The position numbers and the translations under genes were made by a program. Positions 4,511 through 28,603 of a DNA stretch of 64,000 nt are shown here, piece after piece (position 1 is the stretch's first letter; every line of letters begins with the position of its first letter). The stretch spans positions 1-64,000 of the forward strand of contig NZ_CP060414.2 of assembly GCF_014297595.2 (NCBI RefSeq), given 5' to 3'. Origin of the DNA: Neisseria musculi. GTDB lineage: Bacteria > Pseudomonadota > Gammaproteobacteria > Burkholderiales > Neisseriaceae. The notes beneath the pieces were generated by a model. The model saw only the letters and a list, made by a program, of their open reading frames with translations, ran no database searches and was not told the DNA's origin.

Positions 4511-5260
4511 TTACGATTCAAAAACTAACCACTTTAAAACCGGAACCGGCAGTTTGATTGTGCTCACCCCACGGGGGGGGTAAATCTCCTTTATCACAGG
4601 CGCAATGCCTATCTTCTTTTTGTCCTTCAAACGGTAAATCTCTCCACTTATCCGAACAACATGACAATGGCGGAGTAATCTGTCCGACATGGCGGCAGTC
4701 AAAGCCGTATCGTTGGCAAAAGCCCCGGCCCGCCGGCCGAACGGCAAATCGGCCGTCAGAATCATGCTGCCCCGCCCATACCGTTTGGCCGCAACATTGA
4801 AGAACAGGTTGGCTTCTCTTTCAAACGGCAAACAGCCGGTTTCATCAATCACCGGCAGCCTCGGACCCATAACCGAACCTTGCAGATAAGATTTCCGCTT
4901 TCCTCGATTATAGGCCGCCGGTTGCAGCATCAAATCGGCTGCCGTTACGAAACGGATTTTGATACCCGCCATTACTGCCGGATAAGCCAAAGAAACAGCC
5001 AAATCGGTTTCACCTGCCCGGCCGGGGCCCGTCAGCACCGCATTTTCGTGCTTTTCGATAAAACTTAAGTCAGACAACTCCGTCAATCGGGCTTAGGGCG
5101 CACCCGTTGCAAAGTTAAAGCCATATTCCGTCATCGTTTTGACGGAGGGTTGTCCTGCCGGTTTCAGCAAAGCTGCCTGCGTTCTGCTGTTTTTGGCTTT
5201 GAACCCTGCATCCGGCAGCTGTTCGATAAAGTCGGCATACGGGCTTTTTTTCAGCCGAAT
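4511..5260 (-). pseudogene. istB: IstB-like transposition ATPase, inactivated
   Basis: The N-terminal segment (FIEQLPDAGFKAKNSRTQA) and the ATPase body are in one frame but split by a TAA at about 5087-5089. Walker A reads GPGRAGETDLA where family members have GxGKTHLA, so the nucleotide-binding Lys is replaced by Glu. Walker B is represented by LPVIDETGCLPF. The later IstB motif ILTADLPFGRRAGAF and the DRLLRHCHVVRISGE region are recognisable. It would be the target-selection ATPase of the IS21 element, but it is dead on two counts. Confidence 0.8.
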
Positions 5261-6470
5261 GCTGCGGGCAGCCAAAGGCCGTATCTCACAGTGTTTGAAG
5301 CCCGGGCACAGACAGGGCGGCCGGGATAACCGCCGTACCGAACCTGAAAGATTCGGCATCGTGCTTTCAGACGGCAGCCGGCATTCGATACCGTCCCCGT
5401 GTCGGTATACTTTTACGTCATGCCGGTTTCGGGCTGCTTAAGCAAGCATACTTTCAGGCCTGTTGTGGTGGGCTGGGACAGTAAAAATTCCTGCTCTCGG
5501 ATTAAACGGATGTTGGAATTTTCCCTGTTGTCCCGTGTACTCGTGCATCGGCTGTTTGAGAAAGCCGTTTGCCGATACAGCCATCGGCCGTCTGAACATC
5601 CGAAAGCAAACCTGAAGAACGCAATGTCGCCTGCAAAGGCATGATGAAACCGGATTTCAGGTAACGCTTGAAAAGCTCTACTCTGCTTTTTAGTCCCAGC
5701 CCTATATGGCGGCAGATTTTGGAAAGGAAACCGTAGCCGTCGGCTGCTGCCGGCAACACCGGATTCAGACGGCGCCCGTCTTCTGCACAGGCATCACGTT
5801 GAATCATGACGGTTTTGGCATTATCAAACAGCACTTTGTGCGCCATGCCGCAGAAGAGTTCAAAACTGTTGCACAAACCGTCTGTCCGTGCTTCGGTACG
5901 CCCGTTGTCATAGAAGCGGACACAGCTTGCTCGGGAGTAACCCAATGTGGCGGCAAAGGCCTTCGGAGGGTTGCCGCCTCTGCGGATAATGGTGAAATCC
6001 GCCTGCATCTGCCGGCCGGGTTTGATTTCAAAGCGTAGCGCAGGTTCGTTATCGGGTTTGGGTTTGAGGGTGGCGGCATAATCACTGACGATTCCGACTT
6101 TGCCCTGAAAGTCCGTTTCGAGGATTTCCCGATATGGCACGGCAGCGAGAATCCGGCCGGGTGCAGCGGCTTCGATGCGGGAGCGGATATAGTCTTTAAA
6201 AGGGGTCGGGCTTGCCGGGTTTTGATCCGACTCTTTGATATTGCGGTGCGCAGTCTTTGTGAGGCAGATACTTTTTAACGGTGTTTCTAGACAATCCCAA
6301 TTCTTTGGTCATGCCTTGAATGGATTTGCCTTGCTGTTTGAGCGCTTTAATGGCCGCAACCGTCTCCTGATTCAACATGAAAGCAGCCTTTGTTTTAAAG
6401 CTGCGAGTTTAAGTCAGGGTGGTCAATTTCTGACTGCCGTCAGGTGGTCATTTTTGCACTGCCGGTAGCA
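4517..6470 (-). mobile_element. IS21-family element, decayed
   Basis: The element carries istA then istB in the usual order on the minus strand. The right end (6417-6470) has two copies of a GGTGGTCA-type motif followed by CTGCCG. The left end (4517-4580) carries the related, degenerate forms CAAACTGCCGG and AAGTGGTTAGTTTTTGAATC. Such multiple terminal repeats are typical of IS21 elements. Both genes are disrupted, so it is not expected to move. It sits immediately beside the start of the IS110 remnant. Confidence 0.7.
5360..6378 (-). pseudogene. istA: IstA-like transposase, frameshifted
   Basis: The piece from 6378 encodes an HTH region (MLNQETVAAIKALKQQGKSI, then LGLSRNTVKKYL) typical of IstA. 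The next block, 6140-5502, is in another frame and holds the DDE core: MQADFTIIRRGG, FYDNGRTE and HKVLFDNAKTV. No continuous frame joins them, and the C-terminus is lost in frame changes below 5502. Confidence 0.78.
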
Positions 6471-22293: not shown

Positions 22294-22660
22294 AAGCAAT
22301 ACTCCAATCGACAACGGGTACCGGCAAAACGGGTTTCGCAAAGGGTGAGAATAAAGCTGTTTTGGCTGCCTGAGGGAAAACCTTTTATTTCAATTAATAT
22401 CAACAATAAATTAATATCAAACGGTTTTCTTTTTAAAAGTGCACGGGCAGCATGGAAATTTCTAAGGGCTGTGGAAAACCTGTTAAGGTTACCGACAGCC
22501 CTGCCTGAATCCATAATTATATTAGCCTATGGCTGAATGGGGCAATATAAAATTAAGTTTTTGAACCATTGGAAAACTTTGATACAACCCATTAATGCGG
22601 ACGGCTTCAGATAAAGATTTTTCCACAACCTACAGTCTAAGCACTTCATCCTGAATAACA

Positions 22661-22689
22661 AGGCCGTCTGAAAGCTTTTCAGACGGCCG
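22661..22689. terminator. Uptake-sequence inverted pair between potG and rpmB
   Basis: AAGGCCGTCTGAAAGC and CTTTTCAGACGGCCG form a stem-loop in the 540-base region between the divergent potG and rpmB genes. No gene ends here, so a terminator role is uncertain. The region also contains two opposed TTTTCCACA motifs (22470-22478, 22619-22627). Confidence 0.4.
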
Positions 22690-22763
22690 ATGCAGGTTAG
22701 GTTTGAAAACAACAGAATTAGCAGCCGGACAATAGAAAAACACCACCTTTCAAAAAAACAATC

Positions 22764-22793
22764 TTGAAATGAAAATGCTTTTTATGGTATAAA
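22764..22793 (+). promoter_or_regulatory. Candidate sigma-70 promoter of rpmB-rpmG
   Basis: TTGAAA (22764-22769) and TATAAA (22788-22793) are separated by 18 bases, about 38 bases upstream of the rpmB ATG. Confidence 0.5.
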
Positions 22794-22830
22794 CCGCGTT
22801 TTACTTTTTTTGGAAGTTTGGAGATTAACC

Positions 22831-23064
22831 ATGGCACGAGTTTGCAAAGTGACCGGTAAACGGCCGATGTCTGGCAATAACGTATCACACGCCAACAACA
22901 AAACCAAACGTCGTTTTTTGCCCAACTTGCAATCACGCCGTTTTTGGGTAGAAAGTGAAAACCGCTGGGTTCGCCTGCGCGTGTCCAATGCTGCCTTGCG
23001 CACTATCGACAAGGTGGGCATTGATGTTGTTTTGGCGGAAATGCGCGCCCGCGGCGAAGTTTAA
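22831..23064 (+). CDS. rpmB: 50S ribosomal protein L28
   Basis: The 77-residue basic protein starts [20 protein letters not shown], the canonical L28 beginning, and contains the conserved [16 protein letters not shown]. The ATG at 22831 has TTGGAG upstream. It is a structural protein of the large ribosomal subunit, encoded with rpmG 25 bases downstream as in many bacteria. Confidence 0.97.
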
Positions 23065-23089
23065 TTAACGAAATTAAAGGAATACCGTA

Positions 23090-23245
23090 ATGCGCGATAA
23101 AATCAAATTAGAATCATCAGCCGGTACCGGCCACTTCTACACTACAACCAAAAACAAGCGTACCATGCCGGGCAAACTGGAAATCAAGAAATTCGATCCT
23201 GTTGCCCGTAAACATGTGGTTTACAAAGAAACCAAATTGAAATAA
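23090..23245 (+). CDS. rpmG: 50S ribosomal protein L33
   Basis: The 51-residue protein reads [20 protein letters not shown], with [17 protein letters not shown] and [12 protein letters not shown] after it. It is the cysteine-free form of L33. AAAGGAA lies upstream of the ATG. It is cotranscribed with rpmB and followed by a strong terminator. Confidence 0.97.
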
Positions 23246-23267
23246 ACGGTTTGAAGCATGTATCTGC

Positions 23268-23301
23268 AAAGCCCTTGCTGACGATAAGCAAGGGCTTTTT
23301 G
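23268..23301 (+). terminator. Intrinsic terminator of rpmB-rpmG
   Basis: AAAGCCCTTGCT pairs with AGCAAGGGCTTT around a 7-base loop and is followed by T residues. Confidence 0.9.
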
Positions 23302-23675
23302 GTTATGGGAATGGCAGTGATTGCCGCTTGAGATGTGCAGCCTTATTGCTTGGCGATTGCATTATTGGAGAGCCGCGCTACTATATATAGGCACACATAA
23401 TATAGATACAAATATTTTCGGTAAGTTGTTTCCTTTGAATCAGGGCGGGGAATTGCTGTAACGGGAATAAACAATTTCGCCGCATAAGACTTTACAAAGA
23501 TTTTTGCTCGACAGCATGGCCGGCTGCATCAATTCAATCAACAACTCAATATAGAGTAATAATTTAATAATTGAAGTTATAGTAATTGATAAATTTAATA
23601 ATTTAAATTATAATTTAATTAAAAATTATATTGTAAACAGTTAGTATATTTTTTGAATGAACTTTGAAGGATGCT
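23302..23675. other. Very AT-rich leader before the kinase gene
   Basis: No gene is seen. From about 23540 the sequence becomes almost pure A/T with repeated AATTTAATAATT-like runs, in contrast to the GC-rich neighbours. It carries no uptake sequence. It may hold the promoter of the kinase operon and could mark a boundary of acquired DNA. Confidence 0.5.
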
Positions 23676-23744
23676 ATGAGTCTGACTGAATCAATAGTTT
23701 CGCTGAAATCGAAAAATTTATTTGTTATATTGTATCTTGATTAA
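23676..23744 (+). CDS. Possible 22-residue leader peptide
   Basis: A short frame (MSLTESIVSLKSKNLFVILY, then LD) starts within GAAGGATGCTATGAG. This initiation context is almost the same as that of the kinase gene 184 bases downstream (GAAGGGATGCTATGAG). It may be a leader peptide, a relic of a duplicated gene start, or chance. There is no evidence of expression. Confidence 0.25.
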   Translation: MSLTESIVSLKSKNLFVILYLD

Positions 23745-23859
23745 ATGGATTTTTAATAGAAGATGTTAAATTAAAACTGCTTTTGGTTTGAATAAGCGTA
23801 TTTTGACGGGACGGTATGGTAGGGTTCTGTCTGTGTGGTCAAAATTGAGAAGGGATGCT

Positions 23860-26016
23860 ATGAGTAATACTCAAACTGTTTCAGAGTTGGTGGATGAGTT
23901 CGGCTCTCCGGTGAGGCGGTATCGCGGTATCATTATTTCTATTGCGGTATTTCTAGCCATGGTGTCAGGATTGATGTATTACGGCTATATCCTTACCCAG
24001 CAAACCAATAAAAACCAAGTTCAAATCGATGCGGCCGGCACCCTGAGCGATACTCTTTATGATTTGTTAGTAACGATCCAATCATTGCGGCTGGCAAATT
24101 TGGAATATGCTGCGGCTCCGGATAATGCGGAATATGCCGCCAATCAGGTTGAAAATCAAAAATTATTAGAGAAGCGCCGCAGTGATGCGCAAAACTTGAT
24201 TAACGTCATAGATAAAGGAGGGGCATATGATGTGGTTGAAGGCGTGGACAGTATTGACGGCCTGAGTCGGGGAACAATCCGGCAATCACTGAGCAAGGTT
24301 CAGAAAGTTTGGGAACAATATCAGCCCTTGCTCGACAGCACGATTAAACATCCGGTGGCTTCAGATTTCGATTCTGATTTTGCTAAAAAGGCAGCAGAGT
24401 TCGCAGCAGACAATCACAACACATTATATGAAAGTATTGATGAAATTATTGTTTATTTAAATGAAGATATTACAGAGGCTTCTGCTAAGCTGAAAATTGT
24501 CCAGATGGCCGGTATCGGCTTATCGCTGCTGTATTTCCTGTTTTTTGTGAACTTTTTTATCCGCCGTTTGGGTAAGGCAGACCGAGTGGCTGCCATTGCG
24601 CGCCGTGAAAACCGCGAAATTTTGCAAACGGTGGACAGCGGTTTGTTTTTGCTGGATAAAAATCTGAATATTGGGTCTCAATATTCGAATGAGTTGGAGC
24701 GTTTGTGGGGCAAGAAAGATTTTGCCGGACAGAATATGTTGAGCGTATTGTCTGGCATGGTGTCTAATCCGGAAGATTTGGAAACGGCCGGCAGTTTTGT
24801 GCGCCAACTTTATAACTCTAGAGCTAAAGAAAAGCTGATTGAAAGTTTGAATCCTTTGGCATGCAGTCCGATGAATGTTACCAATCAGTCGGGTATTAAA
24901 GAAATACGTTATCTTGATTTCAAATTCAACCGTGTTTACCAAGATGGGGAAATTGCGCGTGTGCTAGTTAGTGTAAGCGATGTAACCAATGCGGTATTGT
25001 TGGAAGATAAAATCGCCAAAGAACGTGAGCAGAATGATTTGCAGATGGAGATGCTGTCTTTCATTTTGAATGCAGATGCCCAACTTTTAGCCGATTTTAT
25101 CGAGTCGGCCAAAAAGCGCAACAATAATATTAATGAAGTATTGAAGCAACCGGTGCAGGCACAGGTTGATTTCTTCAATAAATTGAGAGCTATTTTCCGT
25201 GAAGTGCACGGGTTGAAAGGTGATGCCAGCTCGCTGAGTCTGCATGGCTTTGTTTCAATCGCCGAATATTTGGAAGACAGTTTGAGGGATTTGCAAGGCA
25301 GAAAAACTTTGAATGGCGAAGATTTTCTAACGCTGGCCGTATCTTTAGAAGAGTTGTTCAATCTGACCCAAACTATTGAAGATCTCAATAACCGTATCAA
25401 TAATCTGACTACAGATAACGGCAAGTCTTCCCGCCAGGCGGCCCAACGGGCCGTTAGTTCCGAACCGGTAAAAGGTCAGTTGTCGAAATATGTTGAAGAG
25501 CTTGCACAACGTAACCGTAAAAAAGTGGATTTCAGTTGCGAGGGTATGGACAATCAAGCCGTTAATCTGACGATAAGAAGCCAACTTAGGGAGCTGGCAG
25601 TGCAATTATTGCGTAATGCGGTGGTGCACGGTATTGAAATCCCTGAAGAGCGTATAAAGCAGCATAAACTTGATGCAGGCCATATACGCTTGACTTTGGA
25701 AGACGGCGGTGATTCCGTGCGGCTGACGGTTCAAGATGATGGTGCAGGTATTAATCCGGAGTTAATCCGCAGTAAACTTGTAGAAACAGGGGGCTATTCT
25801 TATGCCGATGCTGCGAAACTGGATAATCGTGTGCTGATCCAAAAAATATTTACCCCCGGTTTTTCTACTGCGGCAGACAATAATGAGGATGCAGGCCGCG
25901 GAGTGGGGATGGATATTATCAGTAACCGTGTTAAGCAGATGAAAGGCAGATTATCGCTGGCAACGCGCACAGGTGCCTATACACGGATTATTTTGACGGT
26001 TCCGAAGAAACCATGA
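23860..26016 (+). CDS. CheA-like membrane histidine kinase (HPt + ATPase)
   Basis: The 718-residue protein has TM1 (about 22-44), a predicted periplasmic domain (about 45-213), TM2 (about 214-237) and a PAS-like cytoplasmic region with QTVDSGLFLLDKNLNI. An HPt domain follows with phospho-acceptor His450 in FREVHGLKGDASSLS. A CheA-type ATPase has its N-box at Asn586 (LLRNAVVHGIEIP), G1 at DDGAG 626-630, an F-box at FTPGFSTA and G2 at GRGVGMD 679-685. The P2 and CheW-like P5 domains of classical CheA are missing, so sensing and kinase are fused. I chose the ATG at 23860 with AAGGGA upstream. Receiver and CheX-like genes follow on the same strand. Confidence 0.85.
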   Translation: MSNTQTVSELVDEFGSPVRRYRGIIISIAVFLAMVSGLMYYGYILTQQTNKNQVQIDAAGTLSDTLYDLLVTIQSLRLANLEYAAAPDNAEYAANQVENQKLLEKRRSDAQNLINVIDKGGAYDVVEGVDSIDGLSRGTIRQSLSKVQKVWEQYQPLLDSTIKHPVASDFDSDFAKKAAEFAADNHNTLYESIDEIIVYLNEDITEASAKLKIVQMAGIGLSLLYFLFFVNFFIRRLGKADRVAAIARRENREILQTVDSGLFLLDKNLNIGSQYSNELERLWGKKDFAGQNMLSVLSGMVSNPEDLETAGSFVRQLYNSRAKEKLIESLNPLACSPMNVTNQSGIKEIRYLDFKFNRVYQDGEIARVLVSVSDVTNAVLLEDKIAKEREQNDLQMEMLSFILNADAQLLADFIESAKKRNNNINEVLKQPVQAQVDFFNKLRAIFREVHGLKGDASSLSLHGFVSIAEYLEDSLRDLQGRKTLNGEDFLTLAVSLEELFNLTQTIEDLNNRINNLTTDNGKSSRQAAQRAVSSEPVKGQLSKYVEELAQRNRKKVDFSCEGMDNQAVNLTIRSQLRELAVQLLRNAVVHGIEIPEERIKQHKLDAGHIRLTLEDGGDSVRLTVQDDGAGINPELIRSKLVETGGYSYADAAKLDNRVLIQKIFTPGFSTAADNNEDAGRGVGMDIISNRVKQMKGRLSLATRTGAYTRIILTVPKKP

Positions 26017-26131
26017 GACAAGCCTAAAATAATATTTAATTATAGTGGCGAATATGCGGCTGTTTATGAATGAAGAAATGTTTATATTTGAGAACGAGTT
26101 CGGTTTTCTACACGCAATATAGGGAAAAATA

Positions 26132-26503
26132 ATGCTGACAATAATGGTGGTAGATGATTCTAATATTATCCGTAACCGCATCACACGGGGATCGGAAAGT
26201 ATGCGTTTTGAAGTGGTGGCGACAGCGGCAAACGGTAAAGATGCAGTGCAATTGTATGATATTTTGCGCCCGGATATTGTTACTATGGATTTGACTATGC
26301 CGGAAATGAATGGCTTGGAATGTATCCGTAACATCATCAGCTTGAATGAAAACGCCAATATTTTGGTTATTTCCGCACTGGCAGATAAGGCTACGGGGAT
26401 TAAAGCGCTGGAATACGGTGCAAGGGGATTTCTTTATAAGCCCTTTACAGATGAAGCATTATTCGAAGCTTTAAACGAAATGGCAGAAGGATTACAAAAA
26501 TGA
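26132..26503 (+). CDS. CheY-like single-domain response regulator
   Basis: The 123-residue stand-alone receiver has acidic pair Asp8-Asp9, phospho-acceptor Asp53 (TMDLTMPEMNG), switch residue Ser81 and Lys103-Pro104. There is no output domain, as in CheY. The gene is 115 bases after the kinase, and its TGA overlaps the ATG of the next gene (ATGA). It would take phosphate from His450 of the kinase. Its downstream target is unknown; the window holds no flagellar switch gene. Confidence 0.9.
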   Translation: MLTIMVVDDSNIIRNRITRGSESMRFEVVATAANGKDAVQLYDILRPDIVTMDLTMPEMNGLECIRNIISLNENANILVISALADKATGIKALEYGARGFLYKPFTDEALFEALNEMAEGLQK

Positions 26504-26973
26504 GAGAAGACCAGCTTCAGGTATTTTTAGAAGGAGTTAAAAAATATTTTAACCAAGTATCTGGGGAAGAGATTTTTGTCGGTACGCCGTATTTGGTTGA
26601 AAATGTTATTCCTGCGGCGCAGCACTATTCTGGGGTGATTGCGATTTCCGGAAAAAACAAAGGGATTGTGTATTTTACCTCGCCTGAAAAAATGGCCAAA
26701 CGGTTGCTTGAGTTGATGGGAGAGAAGGATACCTCCGAAGCTAATTTGATGGACTTGGTTGGAGAGGTTGCCAACACGATTGCCGGTAATGCGCGCAGCG
26801 AGTTCGGAGAGAAATTTGAAATTTCCGTACCTGTCGTGATAAAGGGAGCGCCGGACGAAATCATGCTGCCAAGAGAAGGGCGTTCGGTTGTGATTCCTTT
26901 AGAGTGGAAATTGTGCCAAGCTGCAATTGTTGTGGCATTGTATAAAGATAAAAGCAGAACCCCTTCAAATTAA
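26500..26973 (+). CDS. CheX/CheC-like CheY-P phosphatase
   Basis: The 157-residue cytoplasmic protein carries the phosphatase signature D-x3-E-x2-N as Asp85, Glu89, Asn92 (MDLVGEVANTIAGNA), with a beta-rich C-terminal half ending in VALYKD. This is the CheX/CheC family that dephosphorylates CheY. It has one signature motif, as in CheX, not two as in CheC. A 4-base overlap with the receiver gene suggests coupled translation. The natural reading is that it resets the receiver. Confidence 0.85.
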   Translation: MREDQLQVFLEGVKKYFNQVSGEEIFVGTPYLVENVIPAAQHYSGVIAISGKNKGIVYFTSPEKMAKRLLELMGEKDTSEANLMDLVGEVANTIAGNARSEFGEKFEISVPVVIKGAPDEIMLPREGRSVVIPLEWKLCQAAIVVALYKDKSRTPSN

Positions 26974-26981
26974 AATCTCAT

Positions 26982-27006
26982 AAGGGCAGGTATATACCCG
27001 CCCTTA
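26982..27006. terminator. Hairpin terminator after the CheX-like gene
   Basis: AAGGGC-A-GGTATATACC-C-GCCCTT forms a near-perfect stem flanked by A and T residues. It is placed between this operon and the convergent ubiM gene. Confidence 0.65.
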
Positions 27007-27008
27007 AT

Positions 27009-27045
27009 TTATAGTGGATTGAAGTTAAACCGATTAGTTCAATCC
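27009..27045. repeat. Possible Correia-element end
   Basis: TATAGTGGATTGAA begins like the Correia repeat terminal sequence and pairs with TTCAATCCACCATA a few bases later. Only an end-like fragment is present. Confidence 0.35.
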
Positions 27046-27104
27046 ACCATATTCCCCGGCAATACGAAACAGCTTGACAAAGGCGGATTATTTACACAGG
27101 AGTC

Positions 27105-28289
27105 TTACCCCGTGAGTTGCCGTGTGATCAGTTTTTTCAACGGTGGCAGATTGTTGCTCACACGCAGCACTAAGCCGCGCAGCAGTTTGGCCGGCGCAGT
27201 CTCATCGGTAAATAGTTTCAGCAGCATATTGGTGCCATAATACAGCGGCCGGGCATGCAGGGCGTGTTTACTGTCATAGCGCGACAGCAGCGTTGGAGAA
27301 GCAATGCCCTGTCCTGATTGGGCTGCTTCTTTAATCAAGCCGGCGAGAATATCCGCGCTGGACAAACCCAAATTGAAGCCGTGGGCGGTTACGGGGTGCA
27401 TCCCTACCGCAGCATCGCCGATCAGCGCACTACGGGTGCCGTAAAACCGTTCGGCCAACATACCTACCAGAGGATAAGTATGAATGGTGCTCGCCAGCTC
27501 CATATCGCCCAAGCGGCCGTTAAGCTGCTGTTTGACGCTTGCCGCCAACTCTTCGGGTGAAAGATTCTGAACAGATGCAACGCGGTCGCTGTCAACCGTG
27601 ATCACGGTGCTGGTTAAATATTCCTCCAACGGCAGCAGGGCGATGGTGCGGCCATAGTGAAAGCATTCATAAGCCGTGTGCCGGTTAGAAACCGTATGCT
27701 TCATCCGGCATAAAAACATCGTGCGGCTGTAATCGTGCATATCGGATGCAATACCGAGTTGGCGGCGGGTTTGCGAGAAGCGGCTGTCGGCAGCGACCAG
27801 CAGCCCGGCTGTTAAAGTTTCACCGTTTTCCAAAACCACTTGGGCCTGCTCGGAATCGGTTTTAACCTCTTTCACACCCAGCCCGCAGATGAAAGATATA
27901 TTTGCCGATTCTGCCACAGCTTCATACGCAGCCTTGCGGATATTGTGGTTGGAAACCAGATAGCCCAAACAGTCGGCAGGTTCGCCGCGCGCTTGGCTCG
28001 GCGCAGGGAAGTGCAGCTGGTAGTTTGACTGCCCGTTGAGCACTTTGGCATCGCGCAAAGGATAGATTTCATTTTCGGGAATACGCTGCCACATGCCCAA
28101 ACGCTGCATGATTTCTTTGGAAAGATGCGTCAAAGCGATTTCACGACCATCGTAAGGCGGGTTTTGCAGAGTTTCCTGCGGGCTTTTTTCGATTAAGACA
28201 ACGTTCAGGCCGCTGCCGGCCAAAGAAGCAGCGAAACTCAAGCCGGCGGGGCCCGCGCCGACAACGATAATGTCGCAGGTCAGAGTCAT
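27105..28289 (-). CDS. ubiM: FAD-dependent ubiquinone hydroxylase (UbiM type)
   Basis: The 394-residue flavin monooxygenase of the UbiH/F/M group hydroxylates the ubiquinone ring. Motifs are the N-terminal dinucleotide fold IIVVGAGPAGLSFAASL, the ribose-binding motif SALIGDAAVGMHPVTAHG, and a central LVAADSRFSQTRRQLGI segment. Neisseria is known to use a UbiM-type enzyme. The placement in UbiM rather than UbiH/F is by general resemblance only. The ATG at 28289 has AAGGAAC upstream. Confidence 0.8.
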   Translation of the reverse strand: MTLTCDIIVVGAGPAGLSFAASLAGSGLNVVLIEKSPQETLQNPPYDGREIALTHLSKEIMQRLGMWQRIPENEIYPLRDAKVLNGQSNYQLHFPAPSQARGEPADCLGYLVSNHNIRKAAYEAVAESANISFICGLGVKEVKTDSEQAQVVLENGETLTAGLLVAADSRFSQTRRQLGIASDMHDYSRTMFLCRMKHTVSNRHTAYECFHYGRTIALLPLEEYLTSTVITVDSDRVASVQNLSPEELAASVKQQLNGRLGDMELASTIHTYPLVGMLAERFYGTRSALIGDAAVGMHPVTAHGFNLGLSSADILAGLIKEAAQSGQGIASPTLLSRYDSKHALHARPLYYGTNMLLKLFTDETAPAKLLRGLVLRVSNNLPPLKKLITRQLTG

Positions 28290-28603
28290 AACGGTTCCTT
28301 TGCTGTGGCAAGTATCAAACGGCGTAAGCATACCCGAAAAGCTATATCTGATGTGTGGTTTTTGCAGAGGCCTTAATATACGTCAAGGGAGTTTTTCAGA
28401 CGGCCTAAGCAGGTTTGATAAAGCAATCGGGTTGAATGGGCTTTGCCAAAGCCATCGGCCGTCTGAAAGAATCAAACCAACTTCCAAACCATGCCCAAAT
28501 TGACCGCCCAAGCTAAAAAGCGCATAATCCCACCTTTCTCCAAAATTGTTTTTCAGATGGCCTAACCGTTTGAAATATATTTATTTTCCAAACACAACAC
28601 ACC

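Follow-up and report, generated by a model that had tools for sequence, protein, structure and literature searches.

The chemotaxis system of Thermotoga maritima (CheA-CheY-CheX) is built from the same kinds of parts as a three-gene locus of Neisseria musculi that we describe here: a histidine phosphotransfer (Hpt) domain with a CheA P4 ATPase, a CheY-type receiver and a CheX phosphatase. Three other described systems offer partial comparisons, namely Pil-Chp of Pseudomonas aeruginosa (PilJ-ChpA-PilG/PilH), NarX/NarQ and the PilJ domain of McpN, which share a four-helix periplasmic sensor with the locus, and sensor kinases of the LuxP-LuxQ type, which are coupled to periplasmic binding proteins. 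The locus lies in the first 64,000 nucleotides of contig NZ_CP060414.2, hereafter the window; coordinates are window positions, and the features of the locus are on the + strand. It consists of an intact open reading frame (ORF) for a membrane CheA-like histidine kinase of 718 amino acids (23860..26016), a CheY-like single-domain receiver of 123 amino acids (26132..26503) and a predicted CheX-type phosphatase of 157 amino acids (26500..26973). An earlier annotation made from the letters alone (the sequence-only reading) had placed the three ORFs there; ORF and sequence checks bore this out, together with the overlap of the last two genes, in which the TGA of the receiver and the start of CheX share ATGA.

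We class the trio as a two-component system put together from modules of chemotaxis. We assign a probability of about 0.75 to the reading that it forms a self-contained relay, a phosphotransfer switch under sensor control whose single-domain output can be reset. Its differences from the known systems are as follows. Compared with T. maritima chemotaxis, the trio lacks P2 and P5, its kinase sits in the membrane and itself carries a sensor, and no CheW or methyl-accepting chemotaxis protein (MCP) was found in the genome. In contrast to Pil-Chp, it has no array of receptor, CheW and CheA; sensor and kinase are one protein, and CheX is present. Unlike NarX/NarQ, it has an Hpt domain and a CheA-type ATPase instead of the classical core, its receiver lacks a DNA-binding domain, and the window kinase lacks the N-box, [IVL][ND]xAGxQRML[ST]Q, described as the nitrate site of McpN in the accessible part of PMC6381276.

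Pfam searches detected Hpt (E 5e-9, residues 408-499) and HATPase_c (E 1e-16) in the kinase, both over cut-offs; up to E 0.1 they reported neither a P2 nor a CheW-like domain. Residues ~22-236 (23923..24567) are predicted to form a transmembrane helix, a periplasmic four-helix sensor of the PilJ/NarQ class with no N-box, and a second transmembrane helix, the membrane boundaries being set by eye. A PAS-like fold follows at residues 257-375 (24628..24984), then a helix to residue ~404. The Hpt region, drawn from the Pfam match and the model helices, spans residues 407-519 (25078..25416); its His450 (codon at 25207-25209) was kept in 71/71 aligned kinases. Residues 535-718 (25462..26013) are the CheA P4-type ATPase domain, where the protein ends, with no P5/CheW-like domain after it. 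On the question of a P3 domain, phmmer alignments to P3P4 constructs started at kinase residue 499-500, and the model placed helices at 488-519 and 524-531, residues 520-533 being of low confidence. Pfam, alignment and model thus confirmed what had been proposed for this protein, a membrane kinase with a periplasmic domain, an Hpt histidine at position 450 and a CheA-type ATPase; the claimed absence of P2 and CheW-like domains was also upheld.

The kinase has two of the hallmarks of CheA, an Hpt domain with its histidine and a CheA-type P4. It departs from CheA, which works with chemoreceptors and has no sensor domain itself, in carrying its own sensor and in lacking P5. Because it is without the CheW-like P5 domain that defines CheA, we call it CheA-like, not CheA. 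According to the available portion of a survey (PMC10542144), CheA was identified there by HATPase_c plus CheW domains, and the CheW-like P5 domain was present in 100% of surveyed CheA; kinases without a CheW domain were thus left out of that survey. A 'CheA-like' kinase described in PMC5585712 was considered as the same system and ruled out, since the part of the paper at hand has it working with CheW and an MCP.

The modelled fold places the sensor in the PilJ/NarQ four-helix class. Foldseek searches with the N-terminal model returned mostly PAS/LOV domains first, and NarQ from E 1.5e-3. The PilJ profile PF13675 did not match the window kinase; it matched 18/26 aligned members at E up to 0.5 (best 8.8e-14) and three of 10 further sensors (nine from Neisseriaceae, one from Dichelobacter), these three all below cut-off.

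The receiver matched Response_reg (E 5e-27, over cut-off) and was closest to Thermotoga CheY. It has the acidic pair (Asp8, Asp9), the phospho-acceptor Asp53, Ser81 and Lys103, and no output domain. The third protein matched CheX (PF13690) at E 3e-22, with 78.9 bits against a cut-off of 27. Alignment placed Asp85, Glu89 and Asn92 of CheX, like Asp53 of the receiver, where the sequence-only reading had put them; Glu89 was present in 58/58 and Asn92 in 56/58 aligned sequences. The CheX-type protein probably switches the receiver off by dephosphorylation, as its family does. A loss of catalytic residues in homologues, named beforehand as evidence against a relay, was not seen: across relatives these residues of the trio proteins were invariant or nearly so. 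The ratio of nonsynonymous to synonymous divergence (dN/dS) was 0.025-0.075 in 8/9 comparisons with three relatives, the ninth not being computable; the ratios are rough because dS was high (0.64 to 2.87). These ratios, the intact ORFs and the invariant catalytic residues already contradict the idea that the trio is a decayed or non-functional relic, for which patchy presence (13/46 genomes of the genus) could be cited and which we regard as barely credible.

We searched the organism's own genome (2.93 Mb, two contigs) for partners of a classical system. CheW and MCPsignal each gave 0 matches there, whereas each search was positive in 7/14 control genomes. The absence of MCP and CheW partners, previously noted for the surroundings of the locus, therefore held genome-wide. 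The genome contains a single Hpt domain, that of the trio kinase, and five receivers, among which the trio's alone lacks an output domain; the other four we take, by eye, to be of NtrX, OmpR, PilR and LytTR type. Inspection of the flanking ORFs by eye revealed no flagellar genes; the genome-wide searches did not extend to the CheR, CheB and flagellar families. The CheA-type ATPase and CheY-type receiver might have suggested that the trio belongs to an ordinary Che or Pil-Chp array and is the one piece of it at this site, with receptors and CheW elsewhere in the genome. The searches for CheW and MCPsignal already contradict this, and the single Hpt and a kinase without P5 but with its own sensor speak against it as well, so that such an array is very improbable.

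Comparison across genomes showed that the trio is a conserved unit, an outcome that answers the co-occurrence and synteny check proposed with the sequence-only reading. CheX was found in 28/83 family genomes (13/46 in the genus, 9/12 genera); the kinase accompanied it in all 28 and also occurred in G060, a genome 58% complete. The order kinase-receiver-CheX, with gaps of at most ~300 bases, was kept in 21/27 family loci besides the window. The nearest named CheX relative, at 92%, was that of N. dentiae. A scan of named genomes gave 32 CheX loci, 15 of them outside Neisseriaceae, in Dichelobacter, Rappaport, a Cardiobacteriaceae metagenome-assembled genome (MAG), Cellvibrio, Agaribacterium, Marinobacter, Aromatoleum and other Gammaproteobacteria. 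Twelve of these 15 had the whole trio in order; the exceptions were L089 with a kinase fragment, L088, in which the kinase is split and a receiver ORF was not found, and L092 with CheX alone. Wider samples showed the same order in 13/13 loci of 11 genomes (one kinase broken) and in 7/8 loci, a ninth match in the latter sample having no locus; some organisms recur between sets, and L073 and L132, counted in separate sets, are on contigs of equal length and are probably one organism. Scans with the CheX alignment, own genome counted in, matched 2/398 genomes of the phylum and 12/369 of the class at E 1e-20, and 13/300 of the order at E 1e-15, four of these in the own family; no plasmid matched at E 1e-15. 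We concluded that the trio is a module with mostly fixed gene order in several beta- and gammaproteobacterial families, with no conserved neighbours, and that it is not a Neisseria speciality.

Three loci carried unusual arrangements. L143 (5846-14431) contains a tandem of trio-like sets, two in number, with one more CheX and a pair of genes of ~300 amino acids that lack a Pfam match. In L134 (8113-9357) a receiver-Ser/Thr kinase fusion stands just after CheX, and in L142 (6000-7712) a PP2C-Ser/Thr kinase fusion converges on the trio; each of these two was seen at a single distant locus and is not conserved. A link of the trio to rod shape through MreB was rejected: MreB was present in 27/28 trio-bearing and 44/55 trio-less genomes (Fisher p 0.052, not corrected for kinship).

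How the relay might work can be outlined from the families of its parts. The kinase, presumably a dimer, would span the inner membrane, with its periplasmic four-helix (PilJ/NarQ-like) domain taking a ligand or contact signal. Because there is no P5 and no CheW, the signal should enter through the kinase's own sensor; the PAS-like domain and the helices would then relay it to the ATPase of CheA type, and this ATPase would phosphorylate His450 of the Hpt domain. By family analogy, the phosphoryl group would pass from His450 to Asp53 of the receiver, and CheX would strip it off and so reset the signal. Since the receiver has no output domain, it should act by contact with a partner protein. Of the minimal CheA-like/CheY/CheX relay first proposed, then, the parts, the lack of CheW and MCP and the conserved unit were all recovered, and the phosphotransfer and dephosphorylation steps are carried over from the protein families.

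The leading candidate for the receiver's partner is the type IV pilus machinery, a guess that we hold with considerable doubt. In the own genome PF00437, the family of type IV pilus and type II secretion ATPases, gave six matches, and the accessible part of PMC12632253 predicts that in Pil-Chp the receivers work on the ATPases of the pilus; for these two reasons pili come first among the possible outputs. The sequence-only reading had also named aggregation and cell arrangement as possible outputs.

Several results count against the proposed relay or its suggested output. The full-length kinase model reached a predicted template modelling score (pTM) of 0.40, and its relative domain placement is unreliable. 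Among the 27 family loci, CheX lay ~2 kb upstream of the kinase-receiver pair in three and stood alone, with no kinase on the fetched stretch, in three. Clustering of neighbour proteins across loci found no conserved flanking families beyond clades that could point to an output; families present in more than seven loci overlapped the trio reading frames or were widespread or clade-limited genes, as judged by coordinates. Genes for type IV pilus/type II secretion ATPases are common in these bacteria, and the six PF00437 matches are therefore non-discriminating.

The sensors of related kinases suggest another reading. An exact N-box was found in 15/25 kinases outside Neisseriaceae, two of which matched Pfam PilJ (E 8e-12 and 6e-15); in L088, one of the ten without it, and in L133, which was not counted, the N-box lay in a separate or shortened ORF. 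Together with NarQ among the structural matches, and with related kinases that stand beside sugar-type or amino-acid-type binding proteins, this speaks for a sensor of nutrients or respiration that has nothing to do with motility, with nitrate as ancestral input, whose receiver and CheX would steer gene expression or metabolism through a partner. In contrast, the N-box was present in 0/46 Neisseriaceae kinases (Stenoxybacter counted twice), and the window kinase reads AGTLSD at that place. Because of this absence, nitrate is unlikely as the ligand of the window kinase. Moreover, no neighbour indicates a metabolic target, and an ancestral N-box is a deduction from the distribution rather than a reconstruction. 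We consider a sensor of this kind a real possibility that falls short of being probable.

A second kind of input was suggested by additional kinases. At least two kinases were present in 12/83 family genomes (split matches not counted), and CheX gave one match in eleven of these and none in G060. Away from CheX we collected 20 kinase loci from 12 genomes; G057 among these has a single kinase match, and the second kinase of G059 was left out. A receiver gene adjoined the kinase in 20/20, and a binding-protein lipoprotein gene in 14/20, directly upstream in 12 and divergent in two. Pfam assigned eight of the 14 lipoproteins (seven Peripla_BP_4, one SBP_bac_3), the rest being classed by similarity to these. 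Peripla_BP_4-type genes lay 10-69 bases upstream of CheA-like kinases in L094, L096, L098, L101, L103, L105, L107, L109, L110, L112 and L113; in all of them the kinase is followed by a CheY-like receiver, and the fetched stretch contained no CheX. Three CheX-bearing loci (L057, L059, L060) also had a binding-protein neighbour. Such lipoprotein genes directly beside the kinase recall the LuxP-LuxQ type, from which the window trio differs in its CheA-type kinase core and in having no adjoining binding-protein gene.

A kinase tree of 61 rows was built by a quick method, with long-branch warnings and one outgroup row on the wrong side; nine near-duplicate or partial rows and one of the two L143 copies were left out. 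The window kinase fell in a 20-row clade of CheX-linked kinases, with five other CheX-linked family kinases outside it. A 14-row clade contained 13 kinases with a binding-protein neighbour, and there was a small second clade linked to solute-binding proteins. Three rows stood beside gatA/gatB-like genes. These rows represent a third kinase-receiver pair, flanked by gatA-like and gatB-like genes (identified by eye), that occurs in two genomes of the genus Conchiformibius and one of the genus Alysiella (L095, L097, L102) and has no binding-protein neighbour. In L050 (G012, Neisseria genus) the trio groups with other genera, and an SBP_bac_3-like lipoprotein gene lies 978 bases after the kinase.

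The claim that the kinase senses directly is supported for the window kinase, which has its own sensor in a genome in which no CheW or MCP was found; it may not hold family-wide, because related kinases adjoin periplasmic binding proteins. A broader and speculative picture, which we think unlikely to be right as a whole, is array-free chemosensing in Neisseriaceae. Sensor-CheA fusion kinases, some fed by binding lipoproteins, would phosphorylate their own CheY-like receivers, and one CheX per genome would reset all of them; the system would steer motility on surfaces or behaviour between cells. The ancestor would have sensed nitrate, and its ligand site would have disappeared as binding proteins or other inputs replaced it.

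The sequence-only reading had also hinted at recent acquisition. The gap in uptake sequences that it reported is real: the stretch from 22678 to 28395 is free of GCCGTCTGAA and forms the window's largest gap; one this large arose in 63/5000 uniform placements. G+C content is 0.434 in the trio and 0.539 in the rest of the window, a difference of 0.105. In a record from the gonococcus, 195 bases separate rpmB-rpmG from the downstream oxygenase gene, and CheX had no match in the collection containing that record; other Neisseria carry the trio at different genomic positions. For 26 genomes (23 of the 28 family genomes with CheX, plus three more), the tree of the trio was set against that of GlmS. 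The two differed in the placement of G012, G004, G036, G052/G053 and the Alysiella/G082 group and in their deep branching, with strong support on only 6/23 branches of the GlmS tree. The uptake-sequence gap, the low G+C, the gonococcal record, the varying sites and the discordant rows could fit a recently acquired island. Against it, the trio was AT-richer than its flanks in 24/24 relatives measured, by 0.002 to 0.088, so that low G+C alone is no mark of recent arrival; both trees recover the window clade (G000, G019, G020) and several other shallow groups; and the trio occurs in 9/12 genera of the family. The hint was thus not well supported, and a recent island is decidedly unlikely. We read the trio as long established in the family, where it has been lost, moved to other sites and in some cases transferred.

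Among the matches listed in open-licence full-text literature, a collection that mostly does not cover subscription papers, no description of the trio module was found. In PMC9395523, the main text, which is the part available, has 0 occurrences of chemotaxis or histidine kinase. New here are the fixed-order module across families, the PilJ/NarQ-class sensor, the N-box split, the genomes with several kinases and a single CheX, and the binding-lipoprotein neighbours. CheX, known from classical chemotaxis, is here tied to a sensor-bearing kinase and a lone receiver across several proteobacterial families, and the module gives a compact setting in which the reuse of chemotaxis parts can be tested. 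It makes a clear prediction, nitrate sensing in the N-box branch, and provides a natural experiment in Conchiformibius, Alysiella and ruminant-gut MAGs, where several kinase-receiver pairs may share one phosphatase.

The trio is preceded by a leader (23299..23859) whose reported AT-richness is real, G+C content being 0.337 over 23270-23859. A promoter-like site within it (23586-23614) has 11/12 consensus matches, a consensus match alone; the scan gave 12 such sites against a shuffle mean of 9.8. Just 5' of the leader, the consensus scan found a terminator-like hairpin of 12 pairs (23268..23298), one of three in the scanned region, which is not above the shuffle mean of 3.6. An imperfect hairpin just 3' of CheX (26984..27003), a possible terminator, was seen by eye and not reported by that scan. 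No RNA elements reached Rfam thresholds in 22600-28500. Elsewhere in the window, ORFs at 4511-6140 resemble, by eye, pieces of IS21-type transposition proteins. The second contig of the genome (L114, 4650 bases) resembles cryptic Neisseria plasmids, with an N. lactamica plasmid match at 34% coverage and 87% identity.

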